Assembly (NCBI RefSeq): GCF_000420485.1
Contig: NZ_ATVA01000015.1
Location: forward strand, 1-64,000
Direction: 5' to 3'
DNA from: Paucidesulfovibrio longus DSM 6739
GTDB lineage: Bacteria > Desulfobacterota > Desulfovibrionia > Desulfovibrionales > Desulfovibrionaceae
Length of the DNA: 64,000 nucleotides
Shown here piece by piece: positions 46,951 to 55,577 of the stretch; the first letter of the stretch is position 1, and each line of letters starts with the position of its first letter. Below the pieces are notes generated by a model. It had not been told where the DNA came from and searched no databases. It saw only the letters and a list, made by a program, of their open reading frames with translations. The position numbers and the translations under genes are program-made.

Positions 46951-46979
46951 TTGACACCGGCTTGGACGCGTGCCTAAAC
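46951..46979 (+). promoter_or_regulatory. Possible promoter of the M16 peptidase gene
   Basis: TTGACA (46951-46956), a 17-bp spacer and CTAAAC (46974-46979). The -35 is perfect and the -10 weak. The same 206-bp gap also serves frdC in the other direction. Confidence 0.35.
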
Positions 46980-47036
46980 CCCCTCGACAATGCCGAAACA
47001 GACCTTATGTATGGGAGAAAAAGGAGTGCGAAACTC

Positions 47037-49712
47037 ATGTTCCGTAAATTTCTGCTCATCGGGGCGCTGCTCATGACGGCGTCGTGCTCTGGGAAAACCC
47101 CCGCCTCCCCCGCCCCCGGCGTCGAAGGCTTCGATTTTGCTCAGGCCGTGTCCCAGGCCGAGGCCCCCCTCGTGACCCGGCTCGAGAACGGCATGACCGT
47201 TCTCGTCAAGGAAGACGACCGCTTCCCCCTCGTCAACGTGCGGCTCTACGTGCACGCGGGCTCCGCCTATGAGGATCCGTCCCAGGCGGGCATCAGCCAC
47301 CTGCTGGAGCACATGGTCTTCAAGGGCTCGGCCAACCGCGCTCCGGGCGAGACGGCGCGCCGCATCGAATCCGTGGGCGGCAGCCTGAACGCCGGGACCA
47401 GCTGGGACTACACCACCTATTACGTCGAGGTTCCGGACACGGAATGGAAGCTCGGCCTGGACACCGTGCGCGACCTGGCCTTCCTGGCCAACATCGACCC
47501 CAAGGAACTGGAACCGGAAAAGGAAGTGGTGCTCTCCGAGCTGGAGCGCGGCGAGGACGCCCCCGGCTCCAAGCTCTTCAAGACCCTTCAGGGCATGGTC
47601 TGGCCGGGAACGAGCTACGAGTGGCCCATCATCGGCTTCCGCGACACCGTTTCCAAGCTGCACGCCCAGGACATCAAGAACTACATCGCCCGTCTCTACC
47701 AGCCGCAATCCATGCTCCTGACCATCACGGGCAAGGTGGACGCGGCCAAGGTCATGGACGAGGTCCGCGCCACCTACGGCCAGTTCAAGAACACCCACGA
47801 CGTGAAGCCCGTGACCCCGGAACCGCTGCCCACCCCCAAGGGGGCGCAGATCACGGTCATTCCCGGCAAGTGGAACAAGGTCTACCTCGGCATCGCCTTC
47901 CCCATTCCGGACATGGGCTCGGCCAAGTCCACCGGACTGGAAGTGCTCGGCCAGCTTCTGGGAGGCGACGACACCTCCCTGCTCTACCGCACCTTCAAGT
48001 ACGACAAGCGGCTCGTGGACGACATCTCGGCCTACGCCATGACCCTGGACCGGGTCGGCATGTTCTACGTTTCGGCCACGCTGGACGTGGAGAACGTGGA
48101 CAAGTTCTGGGCGGAGCTTCTGAACTTCTTCTCCGGCCTGGACGCCTCGGCCATTTCGGACCGCGAACTGGAGCGGGCCAAGCTGAATCTCGCCGATTCC
48201 CTGTTCCTGACCAAGGAAACCCTCTCCGGGCTGGCCTCCAAGCTCGGCATGTTCCAGTTCTTCTACGGCGGACAGAACGCGGAGCAGAACTATCTGTATG
48301 AACTCTCCCATGTGGACCGCGCCGAACTCGGCGACCTGATGGCCGAATTCCTGCGGCCCGACAGGCTCTCCGGCGTGCTGCTCACCCCGGAAGGCTCGGA
48401 GATCAGCGCCGCCGCCCTGAAGACGGGCGTGGAGATGCGCTGGCCCGGCCCGGAAAAGGGCAAGATCGCCCAGGCCGCGCCCGAAGAGGGCCAGGTGCGC
48501 GAAATCGCATTGCCGGGCGGCAGCAGCCTCGTGCTCCTGCCGGACCATACCCTGCCCTACACGGCTCTCTCCGTGTACTGGCCGGGCGGCGACGGCTCCC
48601 TGACCCCGGACGAACAGGGCCTGTCCATGCTCACGGCCATGGCCCTGACGCGGGGCACCCCGAAGATGACCGCCACCCAGATCGAGGACTATCTCTCGGA
48701 CAGGGCGGCCAGCGCGGCGGCCACCGCGGGCCGCGACACCTTCGCCTTCAACGCCAAGTATCCCTCCTGGTTCGCGGGCGACCTGCTGCCTCTCTTCGAG
48801 GACATGCTCACCTCGCCCACCTGGCCGCTGAAGGAGATCGACAGGGCCAAGCAGGACCAGATCGCAACCATCAAGCTCCGCGAGGACAAGCCCCTGGGGC
48901 TGGCCTTCCGGCACATCTTCCCCTTCCTCTACCAGGACGGTCCCTACGGCTATCTCCACGCGGGCGAAGCCGAGGCGGTCAGGCACTTCAGCCCGGACGC
49001 GGTCAAGGAATACTGGGAGCGCCAGTCGCAAAAGCCCTTTGTGCTCGCCGTCTGCGGCACCTTCGACCCCAAGGCCATCGAGGCGTTCGCCTCGCGGCTG
49101 GCCACGGAAATGACCAGGCCCGGCCAGGAGTATACCTACGCCAAGCCGCGCTGGGGCGTTGAGAAGCAGGCCGCCCTGCACCTGCCCGACCGCAACCAGG
49201 CCCACCTGCTGACCATCTTCCCCACGCCGGGCACCGAAGACCTGGAAGCCAGCGCGGGGCTGACCCTGCTGCGCGCGGCGCTCTCGGGCCAGAGCGGGCT
49301 GCTCTTCCGCGACCTGCGCGACAAGCAGGGCCTCGGCTACACGGTCACGGCCATGCTCTGGCAGGCGCCCAAGACCGGGTTCCTGGCCTTCTACATCGGC
49401 ACGGAGCCGGAAAAGGTCGCGCAGGCGGAAAACGGATTCGAGAAGACCGTGAAGATGCTCCGGGAAGCGCCCCTGCCCGAAGACGAGCTGGAACGCGCCA
49501 AGAACGTCATCAACGGCGAATACTACCAGGATCACCAGACCTTGCTCTCGCGCAGCAGGCAGGCCGCCAACCTGCTCGTGCAGGGCCTGGACCGCGACAT
49601 GGAGAAGCAGCTCATCGACAAGGCCAAGACCCTCGGCCCCAAGGACCTTCAGGAACTGGCCCGCAAATACCTGATCTGGGACCAGGCCTACAGCATGACG
49701 GTCAACCCCTGA
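47037..49712 (+). CDS. M16-family zinc metallopeptidase, lipoprotein
   Basis: 891 residues from ATG 47037 (AAGGAG upstream). A lipoprotein signal (FRKFLLIGALLMTASC) places it in the envelope. The first M16 domain has the inverted zinc motif H88-L-L-E-H92 in SHLLEHMVFKGS and the downstream Glu in EKEVVLSELERGE, so it is catalytically complete. The second half (from about 490) is the paired inactive domain, with the R/Y region RDLRDKQGLGYTVTAML. Full two-domain length as in pitrilysin-like or PqqL-like proteases. It is divergent from frdC and ends in a strong terminator. Confidence 0.92.
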   Translation: MFRKFLLIGALLMTASCSGKTPASPAPGVEGFDFAQAVSQAEAPLVTRLENGMTVLVKEDDRFPLVNVRLYVHAGSAYEDPSQAGISHLLEHMVFKGSANRAPGETARRIESVGGSLNAGTSWDYTTYYVEVPDTEWKLGLDTVRDLAFLANIDPKELEPEKEVVLSELERGEDAPGSKLFKTLQGMVWPGTSYEWPIIGFRDTVSKLHAQDIKNYIARLYQPQSMLLTITGKVDAAKVMDEVRATYGQFKNTHDVKPVTPEPLPTPKGAQITVIPGKWNKVYLGIAFPIPDMGSAKSTGLEVLGQLLGGDDTSLLYRTFKYDKRLVDDISAYAMTLDRVGMFYVSATLDVENVDKFWAELLNFFSGLDASAISDRELERAKLNLADSLFLTKETLSGLASKLGMFQFFYGGQNAEQNYLYELSHVDRAELGDLMAEFLRPDRLSGVLLTPEGSEISAAALKTGVEMRWPGPEKGKIAQAAPEEGQVREIALPGGSSLVLLPDHTLPYTALSVYWPGGDGSLTPDEQGLSMLTAMALTRGTPKMTATQIEDYLSDRAASAAATAGRDTFAFNAKYPSWFAGDLLPLFEDMLTSPTWPLKEIDRAKQDQIATIKLREDKPLGLAFRHIFPFLYQDGPYGYLHAGEAEAVRHFSPDAVKEYWERQSQKPFVLAVCGTFDPKAIEAFASRLATEMTRPGQEYTYAKPRWGVEKQAALHLPDRNQAHLLTIFPTPGTEDLEASAGLTLLRAALSGQSGLLFRDLRDKQGLGYTVTAMLWQAPKTGFLAFYIGTEPEKVAQAENGFEKTVKMLREAPLPEDELERAKNVINGEYYQDHQTLLSRSRQAANLLVQGLDRDMEKQLIDKAKTLGPKDLQELARKYLIWDQAYSMTVNP

Positions 49713-49893: not shown

Positions 49894-50229
49894 ATGCCCC
49901 TCATATTCGGCGCGCCCAAAAAGGGAACCCGCTCCCAGGACGACAGGCAGGACCAGCGCATCGCCGTGGCGCGCGAACAGTATCTGGCCGGAAGAGTCAA
50001 GATCGTGACCACCGACGAAATGCCCAATCGTCAGGTTCAGGGCACCTTCGGGCTGCTCGTCTGCCGTTCCTTCACCTTCGACAACGCCTTTTACGGCCTC
50101 GTGGCCCAGGCCATGGACGTGAATGCCGACGCGGTGCTGGCCTACCGCGAATCCGTAAGCTTCCACCCCGAAGGGGACCGCTACTACTCCTGCTACGGCA
50201 CGGCCGTTCGGCTCAAGCCCGACAAGTGA
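49894..50229 (+). CDS. Small YbjQ-like protein
   Basis: 111 residues, soluble. The C-terminal part VTTDEMPNRQVQGTFGLLVC ... ADAVLAYRESVSFHPEGDRYY ... YGTAVRL follows the outline of the YbjQ/DUF74 family (a small pentameric fold of unknown role). The N-terminal 35 residues are polar and extra. It converges with the histidine kinase gene, 6 bp apart. Confidence 0.5.
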   Translation: MPLIFGAPKKGTRSQDDRQDQRIAVAREQYLAGRVKIVTTDEMPNRQVQGTFGLLVCRSFTFDNAFYGLVAQAMDVNADAVLAYRESVSFHPEGDRYYSCYGTAVRLKPDK

Positions 50230-50235
50230 TCAGGA

Positions 50236-51699
50236 TCAGGACAACCGAATCGTCACCGCCGTTCCTGTCCGCTCGTCCGTTCGCATGGCGATGTCGCCGC
50301 CGAGGGTCCGGGCGATGAGCCGGGCGGAATAGGTACCGATCCCCGTGCCGTAGCGCTTGCCCGCGGTCACGAATTTCTCGAAGAAACGATCGCGGATCTG
50401 CTCCGGCACCGCCCCCTGATTCAGGATGCGGATCAGGGTTCCCGTCTCCGATTGTTCCAGCTCCACACGTACGATGCCCCCTGCCGGGGACGCCTCCACG
50501 GCGTTGGTCACGAGGTTGCCCAGCATCGAATAGCAAAGCGCCTCGTCCGCGCAAACCACGGCCTTGTCGCCTTTTTCCAGGGGCCGGCCGTTCAGGGACA
50601 CGTCCATTCCCAGTTGGCGCGCGGAGGCGAGCGGTTCGCGCTCGTTCAGGGTCCGCAGCACCAGCGGCACGAGATCCACGTCCCCGGTCTCCAGGACGTA
50701 GGTTCCCCGCTCCATCTTGTAGAGGTCCAGCGAACGGTTGACCATGTTCAGGATGCGGAATCCCGCGTCCTGGATCATCCCCATCAGCTCGCGCTCCTTT
50801 TCCGGAACCTCCTTGCTCTCGCGCAGCATTCCGGAAAGGCCGATGATCCCTCCCAGCGGGGATTTGATGTCATGCTTGGCGATGCGGTCCATCTCCTCGC
50901 GCACCTCCTCCAGCCGATTTCTGGCGGTGACGTCGCGCATGGAAACCAGGAAAGCCGTCTCCCCCTCCCACTCTATTTCCGTGGCGCGCAGCTCCATGTT
51001 CACACGGTCGTCTCCGAGCATGCAGACCTCGCCGGATTCGCTCACGCATTCCCGGATCATGGGCAACCATCGCTCTCCCAATTCGGGACAACCGTCGAAC
51101 AGCGACAAGGCCGCCTGGTTGGCGAAGCGAACGCAGCCGCTTCGCAGCACCACGAACAACGCCTCTGGAACCGCGTTGATGATCGAACGAATCCGCCGCT
51201 CCTGGGCCTCGATCTGAAAATTCTTGAGCGTCAGTTCCCGGCGGGCGTTCACGAGTTCATTGTTCAGGCTCATGAAATCGGCATAGCGGGCGTCGTCGCT
51301 GCTTCGAAGCTGGGCGCACTCTTTCTGCGAGGCGCGCAGACGCTCGGACTGCTCGTTGAGCATCCGCAGCAGCTCGTCATACAGCTGGAACAATTGGTGC
51401 GGCGACCTGGAAACAATGCAAAAGACCCGCTCCTCCGAAAAGAAGCCGAAAAAACTCATGGCCTCCGGCCCCTTTTCCAGAAGCACGTTCAATTCCCAGG
51501 ATAGCGCGGCCCCGTGCGTGGTCACGGCCTTGAGAAACGCGCGATACTTCTCCCGCGAGGCGACGTCGAGCAAGTCTTCGAACCGACTCGGAAGCGCGGC
51601 CCGGTCAAACAGCCCAAGATCGTCGGCGAGCACGTCTTTCACACGGCCTTCCCCATCGCAGCAAAAGACCACGCCGCCTTGCGTCTCTCCTCGGAACAT
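50236..51699 (-). CDS. PAS-domain sensor histidine kinase (soluble)
   Basis: 487 residues, no membrane span. The N-terminal 110 residues form a PAS-like domain, followed by a coiled coil (DELLRMLNEQSERLRASQKE), a second PAS domain (about 175-265, IINAVPEALFVVLRSGCVRF), DHp with H-box RIAKHDIKSPLGGIIGL, and HATPase with N-box LGNLVTNAVEASP; the G boxes are altered but present in GTGIGTYSARLIARTLGG. It overlaps the stop of the cobalamin-binding gene by one base, so the two are expressed together. No receiver gene is adjacent on this strand. Confidence 0.9.
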   Translation of the reverse strand: MFRGETQGGVVFCCDGEGRVKDVLADDLGLFDRAALPSRFEDLLDVASREKYRAFLKAVTTHGAALSWELNVLLEKGPEAMSFFGFFSEERVFCIVSRSPHQLFQLYDELLRMLNEQSERLRASQKECAQLRSSDDARYADFMSLNNELVNARRELTLKNFQIEAQERRIRSIINAVPEALFVVLRSGCVRFANQAALSLFDGCPELGERWLPMIRECVSESGEVCMLGDDRVNMELRATEIEWEGETAFLVSMRDVTARNRLEEVREEMDRIAKHDIKSPLGGIIGLSGMLRESKEVPEKERELMGMIQDAGFRILNMVNRSLDLYKMERGTYVLETGDVDLVPLVLRTLNEREPLASARQLGMDVSLNGRPLEKGDKAVVCADEALCYSMLGNLVTNAVEASPAGGIVRVELEQSETGTLIRILNQGAVPEQIRDRFFEKFVTAGKRYGTGIGTYSARLIARTLGGDIAMRTDERTGTAVTIRLS

Positions 51700-52394
51700 C
51701 AGGCGCCCCCTCCCACGAGCCTCGCCCCCACCCGGACCGCATGGAGAGCGTTCCGGGCCGTGGCGTCCCCGCCGACGTCGGCCAGCAGTCCCGGACTGAG
51801 CTGAAAGGGCAGGCCGCCGACCAGAATCCGCACCCGTCCGTTCAGGTCCGAAGCCTTCACGGCGGCCACCAGCCGGCGCACGAGGTGGACGTTGTAGGTC
51901 ATGGTCACGGATATTCCCAGCAGCTCGGCCCGGCTCTCCCGGAGCGACGCGATCACGGCGTCGTCAGGCGTGTTCGCTCCGAGAAAGAAGGTATTCCACC
52001 CTTCCATCTCGAAAAAATCGCAGACCACCCGCATGCCCAGTTCGTGGAGTTCCCCTCCGACGCAGCACCCGACCATGGTCCGACCGATTTTCGGGCTGGC
52101 GGCGATGTACGGGAAGAGCTGGGAGATGATCAGCTGGGTGGCGGCGGTGCAGTAGTGCTCCGCGGCGACGGAAATCTCGTCGGCCTGCCAGAGCCTGCCG
52201 ATTTCGTATTGCACGGGCTGGAACACGCCGAGGTAGATGTCCCGAATGTCCGTGCCCCTCGCCACGGCGTCGAGAATCAACTCCGACGCGGCGCGGCGCT
52301 CTCCGTCCAGCAGCAGATGAAAATATTTGTGCGCCAGCTCCCGAACGGACAGATCGTCATGCTGATCCAGAATGGAATTCGTTTCACGCCTCAT
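51699..52394 (-). CDS. Cobalamin-binding-domain protein (sensor type)
   Basis: 231 residues. I chose ATG 52394 with AAGGA at eight bases; it overlaps the preceding gene. The N-terminal helical cap (about 20-95: KYFHLLLDGERRAASELILD, then VFQPVQYEIGRLWQ) and Rossmann domain (about 100-220) follow the B12-binding module of methionine synthase. The lower-ligand motif reads E-L-H-E-L-G instead of D-x-H-x-x-G, and later motifs include GISVTMTYN and LVGGLPF. No methyltransferase partner is present; the histidine kinase follows directly, so a sensory role for B12 is likely. Confidence 0.85.
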   Translation of the reverse strand: MRRETNSILDQHDDLSVRELAHKYFHLLLDGERRAASELILDAVARGTDIRDIYLGVFQPVQYEIGRLWQADEISVAAEHYCTAATQLIISQLFPYIAASPKIGRTMVGCCVGGELHELGMRVVCDFFEMEGWNTFFLGANTPDDAVIASLRESRAELLGISVTMTYNVHLVRRLVAAVKASDLNGRVRILVGGLPFQLSPGLLADVGGDATARNALHAVRVGARLVGGGA

Positions 52395-52869
52395 GCGCTT
52401 CATCCTTCGGCAAGAACGCGCCCGCCCCGAAATCGAACCGCTCCCGCGCCAACGCGAAGCGGTCCACGTTTCGCAGCAACGCCTCGTAGAACGGCGCGAT
52501 TTCGGCAAAGGATGTCAGCGTCAGACGGCGGCGGAGGATGTCGAGGCATTCCGGGAGCATGGCCTTCCAATACTCCGCGCGCACGCCCCGGCCCATGTAG
52601 GTGGCGAACACCCAGGTCACGGTCTCGACGAAGCTTCGCACGTCGTATAGCTGGAACACGGAATCCATATAACGGAAATGATTCGCAAGATTGTCCTGCA
52701 TCATTGCTGAAAGATGTTCGGGATAATAGGCGGATCGCGCGCCTCGCTCGGCCATGACCGCTTCCAGCTCGGCCTGCACGCTCCCCCGCGCCGCGGCGTA
52801 TTCCAGCGCCGCCTCCGCTCCAGGCTGGCGCAGCACTCCGAATTCCTTCAACAACATCTCGTCCGGCAT
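52384..52869 (-). CDS. Helical protein of unknown function, first gene of the B12-sensor operon
   Basis: 161 residues with a strong AAGGAGGAG before ATG 52869. All-helical: SAYYPEHLSAMMQDNLANHF, RYMDSVFQLYDVRSFVETVT, MGRGVRAEYWKAMLPECLDI. It has many Tyr, Phe and Trp residues and no membrane segment. I cannot name the family; the pattern would suit a partner or regulator of the B12-binding protein, with which it overlaps. Confidence 0.7.
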   Translation of the reverse strand: MPDEMLLKEFGVLRQPGAEAALEYAAARGSVQAELEAVMAERGARSAYYPEHLSAMMQDNLANHFRYMDSVFQLYDVRSFVETVTWVFATYMGRGVRAEYWKAMLPECLDILRRRLTLTSFAEIAPFYEALLRNVDRFALARERFDFGAGAFLPKDEAHEA

Positions 52870-53011: not shown

Positions 53012-53797
53012 ATGCCGGACGCAAAACACATCCGCACCGTCATCGTGGACGACGAACCGCCCGCTCTGGGCCAGCTGGAATATCTGCTTTCCAGGTTCGA
53101 GGACGTCGAGCTTGCCGCAGCCGTGGATTCCGGACCGGACGCGCCCGAAATCATCCTGCGCGAACAACCCGACCTCGTATTCCTGGACATCGAGATGCCC
53201 GGCAAGAACGGCTTCCAGGTGCTCAAGGAAGTCATGAGCATGGCGAAACCGCCGCTGGTGGTCTTTGCCACGGCCTTTGACGAGCACGCCATTCGCGCTT
53301 TCGAGGAAAACACCGTGGATTACGTGCTCAAGCCCATTTCCGTGCAGCGCCTGGAGAAAACCCTGGAAAGGGTCCGCGCGCTGCTCGAACGCCCCCGCCA
53401 GGACGCCCCGGACAGGAGCCTGGAGGCGCTGCTTGCCAAAATGGGCCTGGGGCCGGGCATGGTCCGCATCCAGGCCGAAGACGCGGGCAGGAACATCCTG
53501 CTGACCCCGGACGAAGTTCTCTATTTCAGCTGCCAGGACCGCCGCGTTGTCGCGCACACTCCGGACAACGCCTACAGCTGCCCCAGCGAGGCCACCCTTG
53601 AGAAGATCGAGGAACGCCTAGCCGGAGCAGGCTTCTTTCGGGCAAACCGCTCAGAGCTGATCAACCTCGACTACGTGCGCGGCTATTCCCCCTGGCTCAA
53701 CGGCAAGTACGTGATCACCATGCGGCATCGCGAAGCCGTGGAAATCGTGCTCAGCAAGAGCCGGGTCAAGGATTTCAAAACCCTCCTCGGCATCTGA
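53012..53797 (+). CDS. LytTR-family response regulator
   Basis: 261 residues. Receiver domain: VIVDDEPPALGQLEYLL, phospho-acceptor D59 in LVFLDIEMPGKNG, VFATAFDEHAIRAFEEN, DYVLKPIS. LytTR DNA-binding domain (about 150-260): ILLTPDEVLYFSCQDRRVVA, FFRANRSELINLDYVRGYSP, YVITMRHREAVEIVLSKSRV. The pair with the LytS-type kinase 31 bp downstream and a CstA gene behind matches systems that sense pyruvate or related nutrients and switch on uptake (BtsSR, YpdAB, LytST). Confidence 0.92.
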   Translation: MPDAKHIRTVIVDDEPPALGQLEYLLSRFEDVELAAAVDSGPDAPEIILREQPDLVFLDIEMPGKNGFQVLKEVMSMAKPPLVVFATAFDEHAIRAFEENTVDYVLKPISVQRLEKTLERVRALLERPRQDAPDRSLEALLAKMGLGPGMVRIQAEDAGRNILLTPDEVLYFSCQDRRVVAHTPDNAYSCPSEATLEKIEERLAGAGFFRANRSELINLDYVRGYSPWLNGKYVITMRHREAVEIVLSKSRVKDFKTLLGI

Positions 53798-53828: not shown

Positions 53829-55577
53829 GTGAAAGCCCTCGAAATCGTCATCATCCTTGCGGAACGCTTCGGCCTGCTGGCCGGGGCCGTGTTTCTCCTG
53901 CTCACCTTCGCGCCGGTACGCAAATTCGGCTTCGCCCGGCGGCAGAACAAGAACAAGACCCTGATCCTCATCCTCTTTTTCGGGGCCTTCGGCATCGTCG
54001 GCACCTACACGGGCAACTCCGTGTTCCAGTCCGTGGCCAACCTGAGGGCCATGGCCGTAATCACGGGCGGCCTTTTCGGCGGGCCGGTCGTGGGCATCGG
54101 CGCGGGACTCATCGCGGGCCTGCACCGGGTGCTTTTCGACCTGCACGGCTTCAGCGCCGTTCCCTGCGGTCTGGCGACCTTCCTCGAAGGCGCGACAGCG
54201 GGCTACATCTCCTACCGCATCGGCCAGCGGGCCATGACCTGGCAGATCGCCGCGCCCCTGGCCATCGTGGGCGAATCCTGCCACATGCTTCTCGTCCTGG
54301 CACTGTCCCGCCCCTTCAGCGAGGCGCTGCGGCTCGTGGAGGTCATCGCTCCGCCCATGATCATCATCAACGCCCTGGGCGCGGCCCTTTTCGTGGAACT
54401 GATCAACGTCTTCTTCCAGGACCGGGAAAAACGGGAATCCCTGCACGCGCAACAGATTCTGGACATCGCGAACATGACCGTGAGCCACCTGCGTTCCGGC
54501 CTCAATCTCGAATCGGCCCGGCAGACCGCCCTGATCCTGCATACCCACGTGCGCCTCGCGGCCGTGGCCATCACGGACACGCGCAACGTGCTCGCCCACG
54601 TGGGCGAGGGGGACGACCACCACCTGCCCGCCTCGCCCATCAAGACCGAAGCCACGCGCGAGGTGCTGCGCACCGGCGGACCCCGCTTCATCACGGACCG
54701 AGGCGGCATCGGCTGCGACGTGGCCGACTGCCCGCACACCAGCGCCATCATCGTGCCCCTGACCAAGGCCGGGCTGATCGTGGGCACGCTCAAATTCTAC
54801 GGCAGCGAGACGACCCCCCTGAACAACACGCTCTACGAGCTGGGCAAGGGCCTGGGCAACCTATTTTCCACCCAGCTGGAGCTGGAGGATCTGCGCATCA
54901 AGGAACACATGCTCGCCCATGCCGAAATCCGCAGGCTCCAGGCCCAGATCAACCCGCACTTCCTCTTCAACTCCCTGAACACCATCAGCGCCTTCTGCCG
55001 CACCAACGCGGAAAAGGCCCAGGAGCTGATGACCGATCTTTCCTTATACATGCGCAAAAACCTGGACTCTAGCCGGGGATTCATTCCCCTTTCGGACGAA
55101 TTGGCCCAGGTCCGCTCCTACCTGACCATCGAGAAGGCCCGTTTCGGCGAGCGCATCAACGTGGAATGGTGCATCGACGAGACGCTGACCAGCTGGCCCA
55201 TCCCGCCGCTGATCATCCAGCCTCTGGTGGAGAACTGCATCCGTCACGGCTTCACCAACAAGGTTCGCGGCGCCCTGGTGATCATCCGGGCGGAGAAACG
55301 GGACGGCCTGCTGCACGTGGCCGTGGAGGACAACGGCGGCGGCATGGACGAGGCCAAGGTCCGCTCGCTGCTCAAGAAGTCCGAGCTGGAATCCTGCCGC
55401 GAGGGCATCGGCGTTCGCAACTGCGCGCAGCGCCTGGAGCAGATCTACGGACCGGAATACTCTCTGAGCATCAGCAGCACGCCGGGCCAGGGCACGCTCG
55501 TGAGCTTCGCCATCCCTCCCCGCCCCATGCGCGCCGCCATGGACCCAGCGCAGGACCGCTCCGCACCGACGGCCTGA
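53829..55577 (+). CDS. LytS-type sensor histidine kinase
   Basis: 582 residues, GTG start with AAGG upstream. The N-terminal 5TM-5TMR_LYT receptor (about 1-190) shows NSVFQSVANLRAMAVITGGL and GPVVGIGAGLIAGLHR. A GAF-like domain (about 215-345) follows, then the His_kinase domain with H377 in AQINPHFLFNSLNTISAFCR and a HATPase domain with VENCIRHGFTNKVRG and GIGVRNCAQRLEQIYG. It partners the LytTR regulator and probably responds to an extracellular metabolite. Confidence 0.93.
   Translation: MKALEIVIILAERFGLLAGAVFLLLTFAPVRKFGFARRQNKNKTLILILFFGAFGIVGTYTGNSVFQSVANLRAMAVITGGLFGGPVVGIGAGLIAGLHRVLFDLHGFSAVPCGLATFLEGATAGYISYRIGQRAMTWQIAAPLAIVGESCHMLLVLALSRPFSEALRLVEVIAPPMIIINALGAALFVELINVFFQDREKRESLHAQQILDIANMTVSHLRSGLNLESARQTALILHTHVRLAAVAITDTRNVLAHVGEGDDHHLPASPIKTEATREVLRTGGPRFITDRGGIGCDVADCPHTSAIIVPLTKAGLIVGTLKFYGSETTPLNNTLYELGKGLGNLFSTQLELEDLRIKEHMLAHAEIRRLQAQINPHFLFNSLNTISAFCRTNAEKAQELMTDLSLYMRKNLDSSRGFIPLSDELAQVRSYLTIEKARFGERINVEWCIDETLTSWPIPPLIIQPLVENCIRHGFTNKVRGALVIIRAEKRDGLLHVAVEDNGGGMDEAKVRSLLKKSELESCREGIGVRNCAQRLEQIYGPEYSLSISSTPGQGTLVSFAIPPRPMRAAMDPAQDRSAPTA

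Follow-up and report, generated by a model that had tools for sequence, protein, structure and literature searches.

Photocobilins (SasPcob and AbDPcob; PDB 8j2w, 8j2x and 8j2y) and photoglobins are the described proteins closest to the system presented here, a set of three genes for a globin-fold protein, a cobalamin (B12)-binding protein and a histidine kinase in Paucidesulfovibrio longus DSM 6739. The set lies in the first 64,000 nucleotides of contig NZ_ATVA01000015.1, and this whole stretch is referred to as the window. Photocobilins bind adenosylcobalamin and biliverdin and change on green or red light; their band near 570 nm is then lost and new features arise near 356 and 500 nm (PMC10979010). 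In SasPcob, Trp296 contacts the corrin as well as ring D of the bilin and Asp270 is the key biliverdin contact (PMC10979010). AbDPcob, which has His at the Asp270 position, binds biliverdin weakly yet responds to light, and another role has been suggested for its globin; the light state of SasPcob is water-ligated, not bis-His (PMC10979010). Photoglobins carry a CXQD motif (PMC10151467). Light-responsive cobalamin domains are characterized by the motifs GxxW, EH, GxxH and GxxxP; in a clustered collection of 128 000 such sequences, 1561 had all four (PMC11796333).

Here we describe the three genes, their relatives and the explanations that may account for them. The gene layout, the globin fold of the gene 1 model, the homology between gene 2 and photocobilins, the conservation of the gene 2 motifs and the linkage of the set were all computed in this analysis. 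They lead us to conclude that the three genes probably encode a photoreceptor of the photocobilin type that is split into separate proteins and has a kinase of its own. A sequence-only reading of the window had recognized three overlapping genes between 50236 and 52869, and this is confirmed, all three being carried by the minus strand:

52384 to 52869, minus strand: gene 1, a 161-residue globin-fold protein, photoglobin-like (AlphaFold2 model, structure matches and residue mapping; a Shine-Dalgarno-like GGAGGAG lies ahead of its ATG).
51699 to 52394, minus strand: gene 2, a 231-residue cobalamin-binding sensor protein with a cap and a Rossmann domain (Pfam PF02607 and PF02310 above cut-off; best PDB matches 8j2x/8j2w).
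50236 to 51699, minus strand: gene 3, a 487-residue soluble histidine kinase (Pfam; alignment with kinase and GGDEF partners).

Genes 1 and 2 share 11 bases, and genes 2 and 3 are joined at the sequence TGATG. For gene 2 the ATG at 52394 is preferred (231 residues); the frame is open further upstream and includes another ATG at 52403.

The cobalamin-binding protein

In Pfam, gene 2 scores 57.9 bits with B12-binding_2 and 72.7 bits with B12-binding, both above cut-off. The published light-responsive motifs (PMC11796333) are all present (4/4) and were placed by alignment:

52188 to 52199, minus strand: GxxW motif, GRLW, residues 66-69, with Trp69 equivalent to SasPcob Trp61.
52155 to 52160, minus strand: EH motif, Glu79-His80, equivalent to SasPcob Glu71-His72.
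52035 to 52055, minus strand: GELHELG (G-ExHxxG), containing the GxxH motif and the predicted lower axial His117, equivalent to SasPcob His108.
51966 to 51980, minus strand: GxxxP motif, GANTP, residues 139-143.

These residues are strongly conserved. In an alignment of 76 partner proteins, from which partners with fewer than 150 matched residues were left out, the Gly and Trp of GxxW, the EH motif, the axial His and GxxxP are jointly kept in 73, the window protein included. The first Gly of GxxH is kept in only 13 of the 76, Asn being commoner at that position. Immediately after the cap Trp, the window protein and SasPcob both have Gln; 69 of the 76 have Glu. The sequence-only reading had singled out a Glu in place of Asp in the E-x-H-x-x-G motif of this module. 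The motif is indeed present (E-L-H-E-L-G, residues 115-120 counted from the ATG at 52394), but it is not odd: the Glu occurs in 75 of the 76 proteins, and is therefore the rule of this B12 group, and it is also found in SasPcob (GEWH).

The best PDB sequence matches of gene 2 are the photocobilins 8j2x and 8j2w (E 1.2e-21), followed by the MerR-type protein 8jbs (3.2e-17) and the methyltransferase corrinoid protein 7xcn (9.7e-09). For comparison by structure we used a related natural globin-B12 fusion of the same family, L036 (loci are given L numbers and genomes G numbers throughout), whose model has a predicted local distance difference test score (pLDDT) of 89.5 and a predicted template modelling score of 0.87. 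Its B12 half is most similar to photocobilins (Z 26.4, 25.9 and 25.7; root-mean-square deviation 1.6 over 208 residues at Z 26.4), the next match being a monomethylamine corrinoid protein (Z 22.9). Photocobilin is the nearest solved B12 relative by sequence for the window protein, and by structure for the relative L036 only. A corrinoid state, light and a methyl group had been proposed as alternative signals for the set. Light is now favoured among the three, because gene 2 carries the four motifs (PMC11796333) and, by sequence, has its nearest kin of solved structure among the photocobilins.

The globin-fold partner

Gene 1 had been described as a helical protein without a known family. This is true of single-sequence searches: on its own, the 161-residue protein has no Pfam match, one meaningless NCBIfam match (E 0.017, 13 bits of 1379) and one weak match among PDB sequences (E 0.17). 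It does not hold for the predicted structure, a check that had been suggested. The AlphaFold2 model (alignment A1, twelve relatives; mean pLDDT 88.8) has the fold of a globin with known kin. In VIA-align it matches the biliverdin-binding smURFP at Z 13.2, allophycocyanins at up to 12.5 and photocobilin 8j2x at 10.7, the latter with 16 percent identity, the highest among the best 50 rows. For a helical protein a Z near 13 has to be read with caution, and likeness of fold does not reveal function.

With the family profile, L052 of genome G271 is reached at E 5e-6, and this natural fusion of a globin and a B12 domain in turn matches the Phycobilisome family PF00502 (29.7 bits against a cut-off of 22.2). 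The genome position of gene 1, beside a B12 photosensor, is also that of photoglobin. Two residues of the pocket could be mapped. Trp86 (52612-52614) aligns with SasPcob Trp296, with a numbering offset of five, the weak profile match to 8j2x thus being in register. Asn60 (52690-52692) occupies the position of SasPcob Asp270, as mapped by way of Asp49 of L052: Asp270 falls on Asp49 in a weak-score stretch, and Asp49 stands in the Asn60 column of the family alignment. Among rows found without a motif filter, Trp86 is present in 25/25 and Asn60 in 23/25. The 80 loci from public contigs were retrieved with a peptide pattern holding Trp86, Val84, Val87 and Tyr91, so that conservation of these four residues in those loci is not evidence.

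Linkage and distribution

Globins of this type were sought with the window protein in 59 relatives (11 with a match) and with profiles in 149 genomes of the class (16 matches), 297 of the phylum (13) and public genome contigs (80 of 89 loci kept). The linkage survey covers 89 distinct loci (12 plus 77 public), the duplicates L059, L101 and L121 having been removed from 92. A B12 protein is encoded on the same strand within 3 kilobases at 79 of these 89 globin loci, and a kinase or GGDEF protein within 3.5 kilobases at 77. The ten loci without a B12 protein are L016, L018, L021, L061, L062, L086, L095, L097, L106 and L109; in L062, L106 and L109 the contig ends a short way upstream. In G043 and G047 the globin stands alone and a matching B12 protein is encoded elsewhere in the genome, and G134 has the globin and no B12 partner above 200 bits. 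The clade is found in sulfate reducers, Bacteroidales, spirochaetes, planctomycetes and others.

A gene-neighbourhood search, likewise suggested by the earlier reading, found the complete three-gene set again in G001 and G002 (the two further genomes of this genus that were covered) and in G016 and G022 (same family); with this recurrence the arrangement is beyond chance. The genes occur in the orders globin-B12-kinase, B12-kinase-globin and B12-globin-kinase. They are also found as globin-B12 fusions: 13 were aligned, with the globin first in all 13 (L053 was left out for its weak score, and the apparent fusion in L130 is a partial match that may be an artefact). In the tree the branches of L052 and L039 are very long, so that it gives no order of splitting and fusing. 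A B12 partner above 200 bits is present in 10/11 genomes with the globin and in 2/11 without a globin match (p 0.002), in a sample that was hand-picked from genomes already seen, not random, and with a 200-bit line set after the scores were known. The globin-less genomes were defined by the single-protein search, which missed G042 and G054, found later by profile; G004, G006, G026 and G030 have no globin match by profile either.

That the locus has no corrinoid methyltransferase had been noted, and this extends to its relatives: none appears among the neighbour families listed (the commonest 25 of 128 and commonest 25 of 146, from 283 open reading frames), where single cases are possible. Homologues always encoded beside methyltransferases, which had been named as pointing to a metabolic role, did not come up among these families. 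The chemotaxis methyltransferase domain CheR_N is listed with 2 members. In this survey, 17 of 300 neighbouring reading frames were left out by eye as likely antisense, and long ones were cut to 300 residues. These results bear on the idea that gene 2 carries methyl groups on a corrinoid for a methyltransferase encoded at another locus, with the kinase beside it by chance. Gene 2 does give distant matches to the NCBIfam models MtgC, MtbC and pyl_corrinoid, but the scores are far below the cut-offs (55.7/370, 51.5/350 and 43.3/215.3), its Trp and Glu-His motifs are of the photoreceptor kind, and the partners encoded near the B12 protein are kinases or GGDEF proteins. A role in methyltransfer was rejected on these scores and on the neighbour families listed, and we regard it as the most improbable of the explanations considered.

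The histidine kinase and the surrounding genes

Gene 3 comprises an N-terminal PAS-like region with a coiled coil (about residues 1-170), a PAS domain (168-213), HisKA and HATPase_c. The HisKA histidine, His276, is encoded at 50872-50874. The protein had been called a soluble two-PAS kinase. It is indeed without a transmembrane-like stretch (top 19-residue mean hydropathy 1.43) and its second PAS (168-213) reaches the Pfam cut-off, the only one to do so. The N-terminal PAS is less clear: this region of the window kinase has no Pfam match at E <= 0.01, but it is PAS-like by way of its relatives, 17 of 44 N-terminal segments in the same alignment matching PAS_8 at that threshold, the window's own not among them. 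These first 170 residues are common to the partner kinases and GGDEF proteins (the 44 segments comprise 30 from kinases, 8 from GGDEF proteins and 6 not assigned to either) and may be an adaptor that receives the signal. The usual G1 box of such kinases is D-x-G. Here it is Asn-Gln-Gly (N-x-G; 50419-50421), with the Asn common to the four closest kinases.

Divergently oriented upstream of the set are genes for a LytTR response regulator (53012-53797) and then a LytS-type kinase (53829-55577). A small gene downstream (49894-50229) is convergent and has a sub-cut-off match to a YbjQ-like model. In the window, no response regulator gene lies downstream of the set in the same orientation. A promoter-like site at 52933-52905 is a single instance and was given no weight because 0.6 are expected by chance. 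An M16 peptidase gene is present near the set (46962-49712), and such a gene also adjoins the orphan family globins L016:6848-7336 and L018:6673-7143, the B12 partner being encoded elsewhere in both genomes.

Globin identity, bilin supply and cobalamin supply

A number of results weigh against a split photocobilin and are brought together here. In VIA-align, heme-based globin-coupled sensors reach Z 13.1 with the gene 1 model, matching it as well as smURFP does. Foldseek returns nothing at E <= 0.001; heme-binding neuroglobins are first (E 0.05), phycobilisome proteins follow from E 0.07, and 8j2x is at rank 50. The sequence link is weak too: profile A1 finds photocobilin 8j2x at E 1.4, and the larger profile A5 (102 rows) is no better at detecting PDB entries, losing photocobilin and giving the allophycocyanin 8ddy_B at E 1.2. 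Furthermore, Asn60 replaces the biliverdin-contact Asp270, and this Asn is found in 100 of the 102 members. The globin-coupled sensors and neuroglobins would also suit a heme globin that senses oxygen or nitric oxide and is paired with the B12 protein. However, there is no His in residues 77-98 of the window protein, the proximal-histidine region, only 12 of 102 members have one in residues 77-92, and L052 falls in Phycobilisome, not in a heme-globin family. With the helix-F histidine missing from the window protein, a heme globin identity was rejected, and we consider this explanation very unlikely.

The supply of a bilin is a second such point. Neither heme oxygenase (PF01126) nor the phytochrome PHY domain was found in the window's genome. 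Among the 28 globin-bearing genomes, heme oxygenase is present in three (G271, G016 and G052) and phytochrome in one; these 28 are the genomes with a globin match minus the weak matches G048 and G241, of which G048 does have heme oxygenase. Among the 59 relatives, heme oxygenase is not significantly associated with the globin (2/11 vs 4/48, p 0.31), nor is it when profile globin matches are added (2/13 vs 4/46, p 0.60, or 3/14 vs 3/45, p 0.14). From these two surveys it follows that the examined Asn-type globins are mostly without heme oxygenase. The gene neighbourhoods in G271 and G016 speak for the photoreceptor. In G271 the enzyme is a divergent neighbour of the globin-B12 fusion, which has Asp at the Asp270 position; in G052 it lies on another contig than the globin; and in G016 it is of little weight for the globin because it adjoins a phytochrome that it may serve, within the following cluster:

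L147:4289-11053, minus strand: light-sensing cluster of G016, a same-strand run of globin, B12 sensor, PAS kinase, response regulator, CheD, heme oxygenase and bacteriophytochrome-GGDEF.

Heme can also be opened anaerobically, by radical S-adenosylmethionine enzymes of the HutW/ChuW type. A gene of this type in G002 (G002:C223:10513-11763, L142) scores 516.6 bits against a curated cut-off of 400 and is the only one in the 28 genomes to pass it, the best match in the window's genome having 188 bits. Matches below the cut-off mean little, since all of 14 control genomes have matches, one of them above it. The G002 gene is a possible oxygen-free source of opened heme. Alternatively, by analogy with AbDPcob, the globin here could have a role other than biliverdin binding.

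At L148:580-1848, L161:4811-6334 (minus strand), L165:4432-5739 and L166:5940-7283, heme oxygenase is part of a fusion with a conserved domain some 225 residues long, the L161 fusion being divergent from a B12 photosensor and kinase. In G007, which has no globin match with the window protein, a B12 protein of the photocobilin type and its kinase have as divergent neighbour a heme oxygenase that is fused to an unknown domain. The ~225-residue domain is not recognized by PDB profile search, and in L148 Pfam detects nothing but the heme oxygenase. The idea that it is another globin (L148, L161, L165 and L166) was dropped, the profile comparison giving a probability of 0.5 percent.

A third such point concerns cobalamin. 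CobS was found in the window's genome, but the adenosyltransferases CobA (PF02572) and PduO/EutT type (PF01923) were not, and the Pfam models of CobA and of the PduO type likewise found nothing in G001 and G002. Among the 28 globin genomes, PF02572 is present in 22 (above cut-off in 21) and PF01923 in 2. Since neither was found in its genome, a supply of adenosylcobalamin is unproven for the window, unless an unrecognized enzyme or uptake provides it.

The lack of matches to heme oxygenase, phytochrome and the usual adenosyltransferases in the window's genome would also fit a set that senses corrinoid chemistry and not light. Gene 2 would then report the form of cobalamin (adenosyl, methyl, hydroxo), its availability or the loss of the cofactor, the globin would stabilize one state, and the kinase would tune metabolism to cobalamin supply or redox. 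Many of the hosts are moreover named as sulfate reducers or Bacteroidales and are not expected to live by light. On the other hand, the adenosyl-holding residues of light-responsive domains are kept in 73 of the 76 partner proteins, one relative (G016) has the set beside a bacteriophytochrome, and the neighbour families listed (the commonest 25 of 128 and 25 of 146) include none of cobalamin metabolism. On balance we think this explanation unlikely.

Proposed mechanism

If the set is a split photocobilin-type photoreceptor, we infer its cofactor, complex formation and geometry, light response, phosphotransfer and kinase control as follows. Gene 2 would bind adenosylcobalamin base-off via His117, with Trp69 and Glu79-His80 surrounding the adenosyl group. 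As a non-heme globin, gene 1 would dock on the B12 protein in the manner of the globin half of a photocobilin, so that Trp86 would face the corrin. Green light would break the Co-C bond and thereby change the adenosyl pocket and the quaternary contacts. The PAS-like and coiled-coil part at the N-terminus of gene 3 could sense this change, autophosphorylation of His276 would be altered, in one direction or the other, and phosphotransfer would follow to a response regulator encoded elsewhere.

A broader proposal, which we put forward tentatively and with some doubt, is that an "Asn-type" photoglobin clade works with a separate B12 photosensor in hosts most of which, among those tested, show no heme oxygenase. 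Its globin might bind a linear tetrapyrrole formed without oxygen, or else be a pigment-less lever that carries the cobalamin photoreaction via the PAS-like adaptor to interchangeable kinase and GGDEF outputs. If the photoreceptor reading is true, B12 serves many sulfate reducers and Bacteroidales in seeing light, by a photobiology that, in the papers cited above, has so far been studied with fused proteins of a few bacteria. Separate polypeptides would let globin and cobalamin modules be mixed, and would make communication between globin and cobalamin directly testable.

Comparison with known systems

CarH and CtMerR share with gene 2 the cap Trp, the Glu-His pair and the axial His. In contrast to CarH, no DNA-binding domain was found in gene 2 by Pfam, and its score with the CarH model is 39.7 against a cut-off of 400. 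What we take to be the position of CarH His132 is Gln in the window protein. In the BBAG-2 globins, as in the window, a globin and a B12-binding protein are encoded together; BBAG-2 globins, however, are tied to heme oxygenase and have an RGMC motif (PMC10151467), whereas heme oxygenase is found here in 3 of 28 genomes. Photoglobin is likewise a non-heme globin linked to B12-binding light-sensor domains (Schneider et al. 2022, CSBJ 20:261, as described in PMC10151467, PMC10979010 and PMC11796333). It differs in its CXQD motif (PMC10151467), which is MMQD in the window protein; the Cys position is occupied by Met in 91 of 102 members and by Cys in none (0/102).

The likeness to photocobilins (PMC10979010) extends to the kind of B12 domain, the globin partner and the equivalent of Trp296, to the Gln after the cap Trp that is shared with SasPcob, and to the GGDEF outputs of relatives. 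The differences are that the globin and B12 domains are on two polypeptides in the window (they are fused in relatives such as L036), that the 13 fused relatives have the globin first while that of SasPcob comes after the B12 domain, that Asn stands in place of Asp270, that the output is a separate PAS histidine kinase, and that heme oxygenase was not found in the window's genome. Since it lacks both the single polypeptide and Asp270, the set is filed as photocobilin-like and not as a photocobilin.

In the literature searched, no work was found that joins a B12-binding photoreceptor, a histidine kinase and sulfate reducers; the nearest topics yielded a review of optogenetic tools and another of tetrapyrrole biosynthesis. 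The principle of pairing a globin with a B12 light sensor is known and already in print for photoglobin and photocobilin, and gene-neighbourhood links between photoglobin and B12 domains were reportedly described in the photoglobin work of 2022. What the window adds, as far as searched, is the split three-gene form with a kinase, the Asn-type pocket, the adaptor shared between outputs and the scarcity of heme oxygenase.

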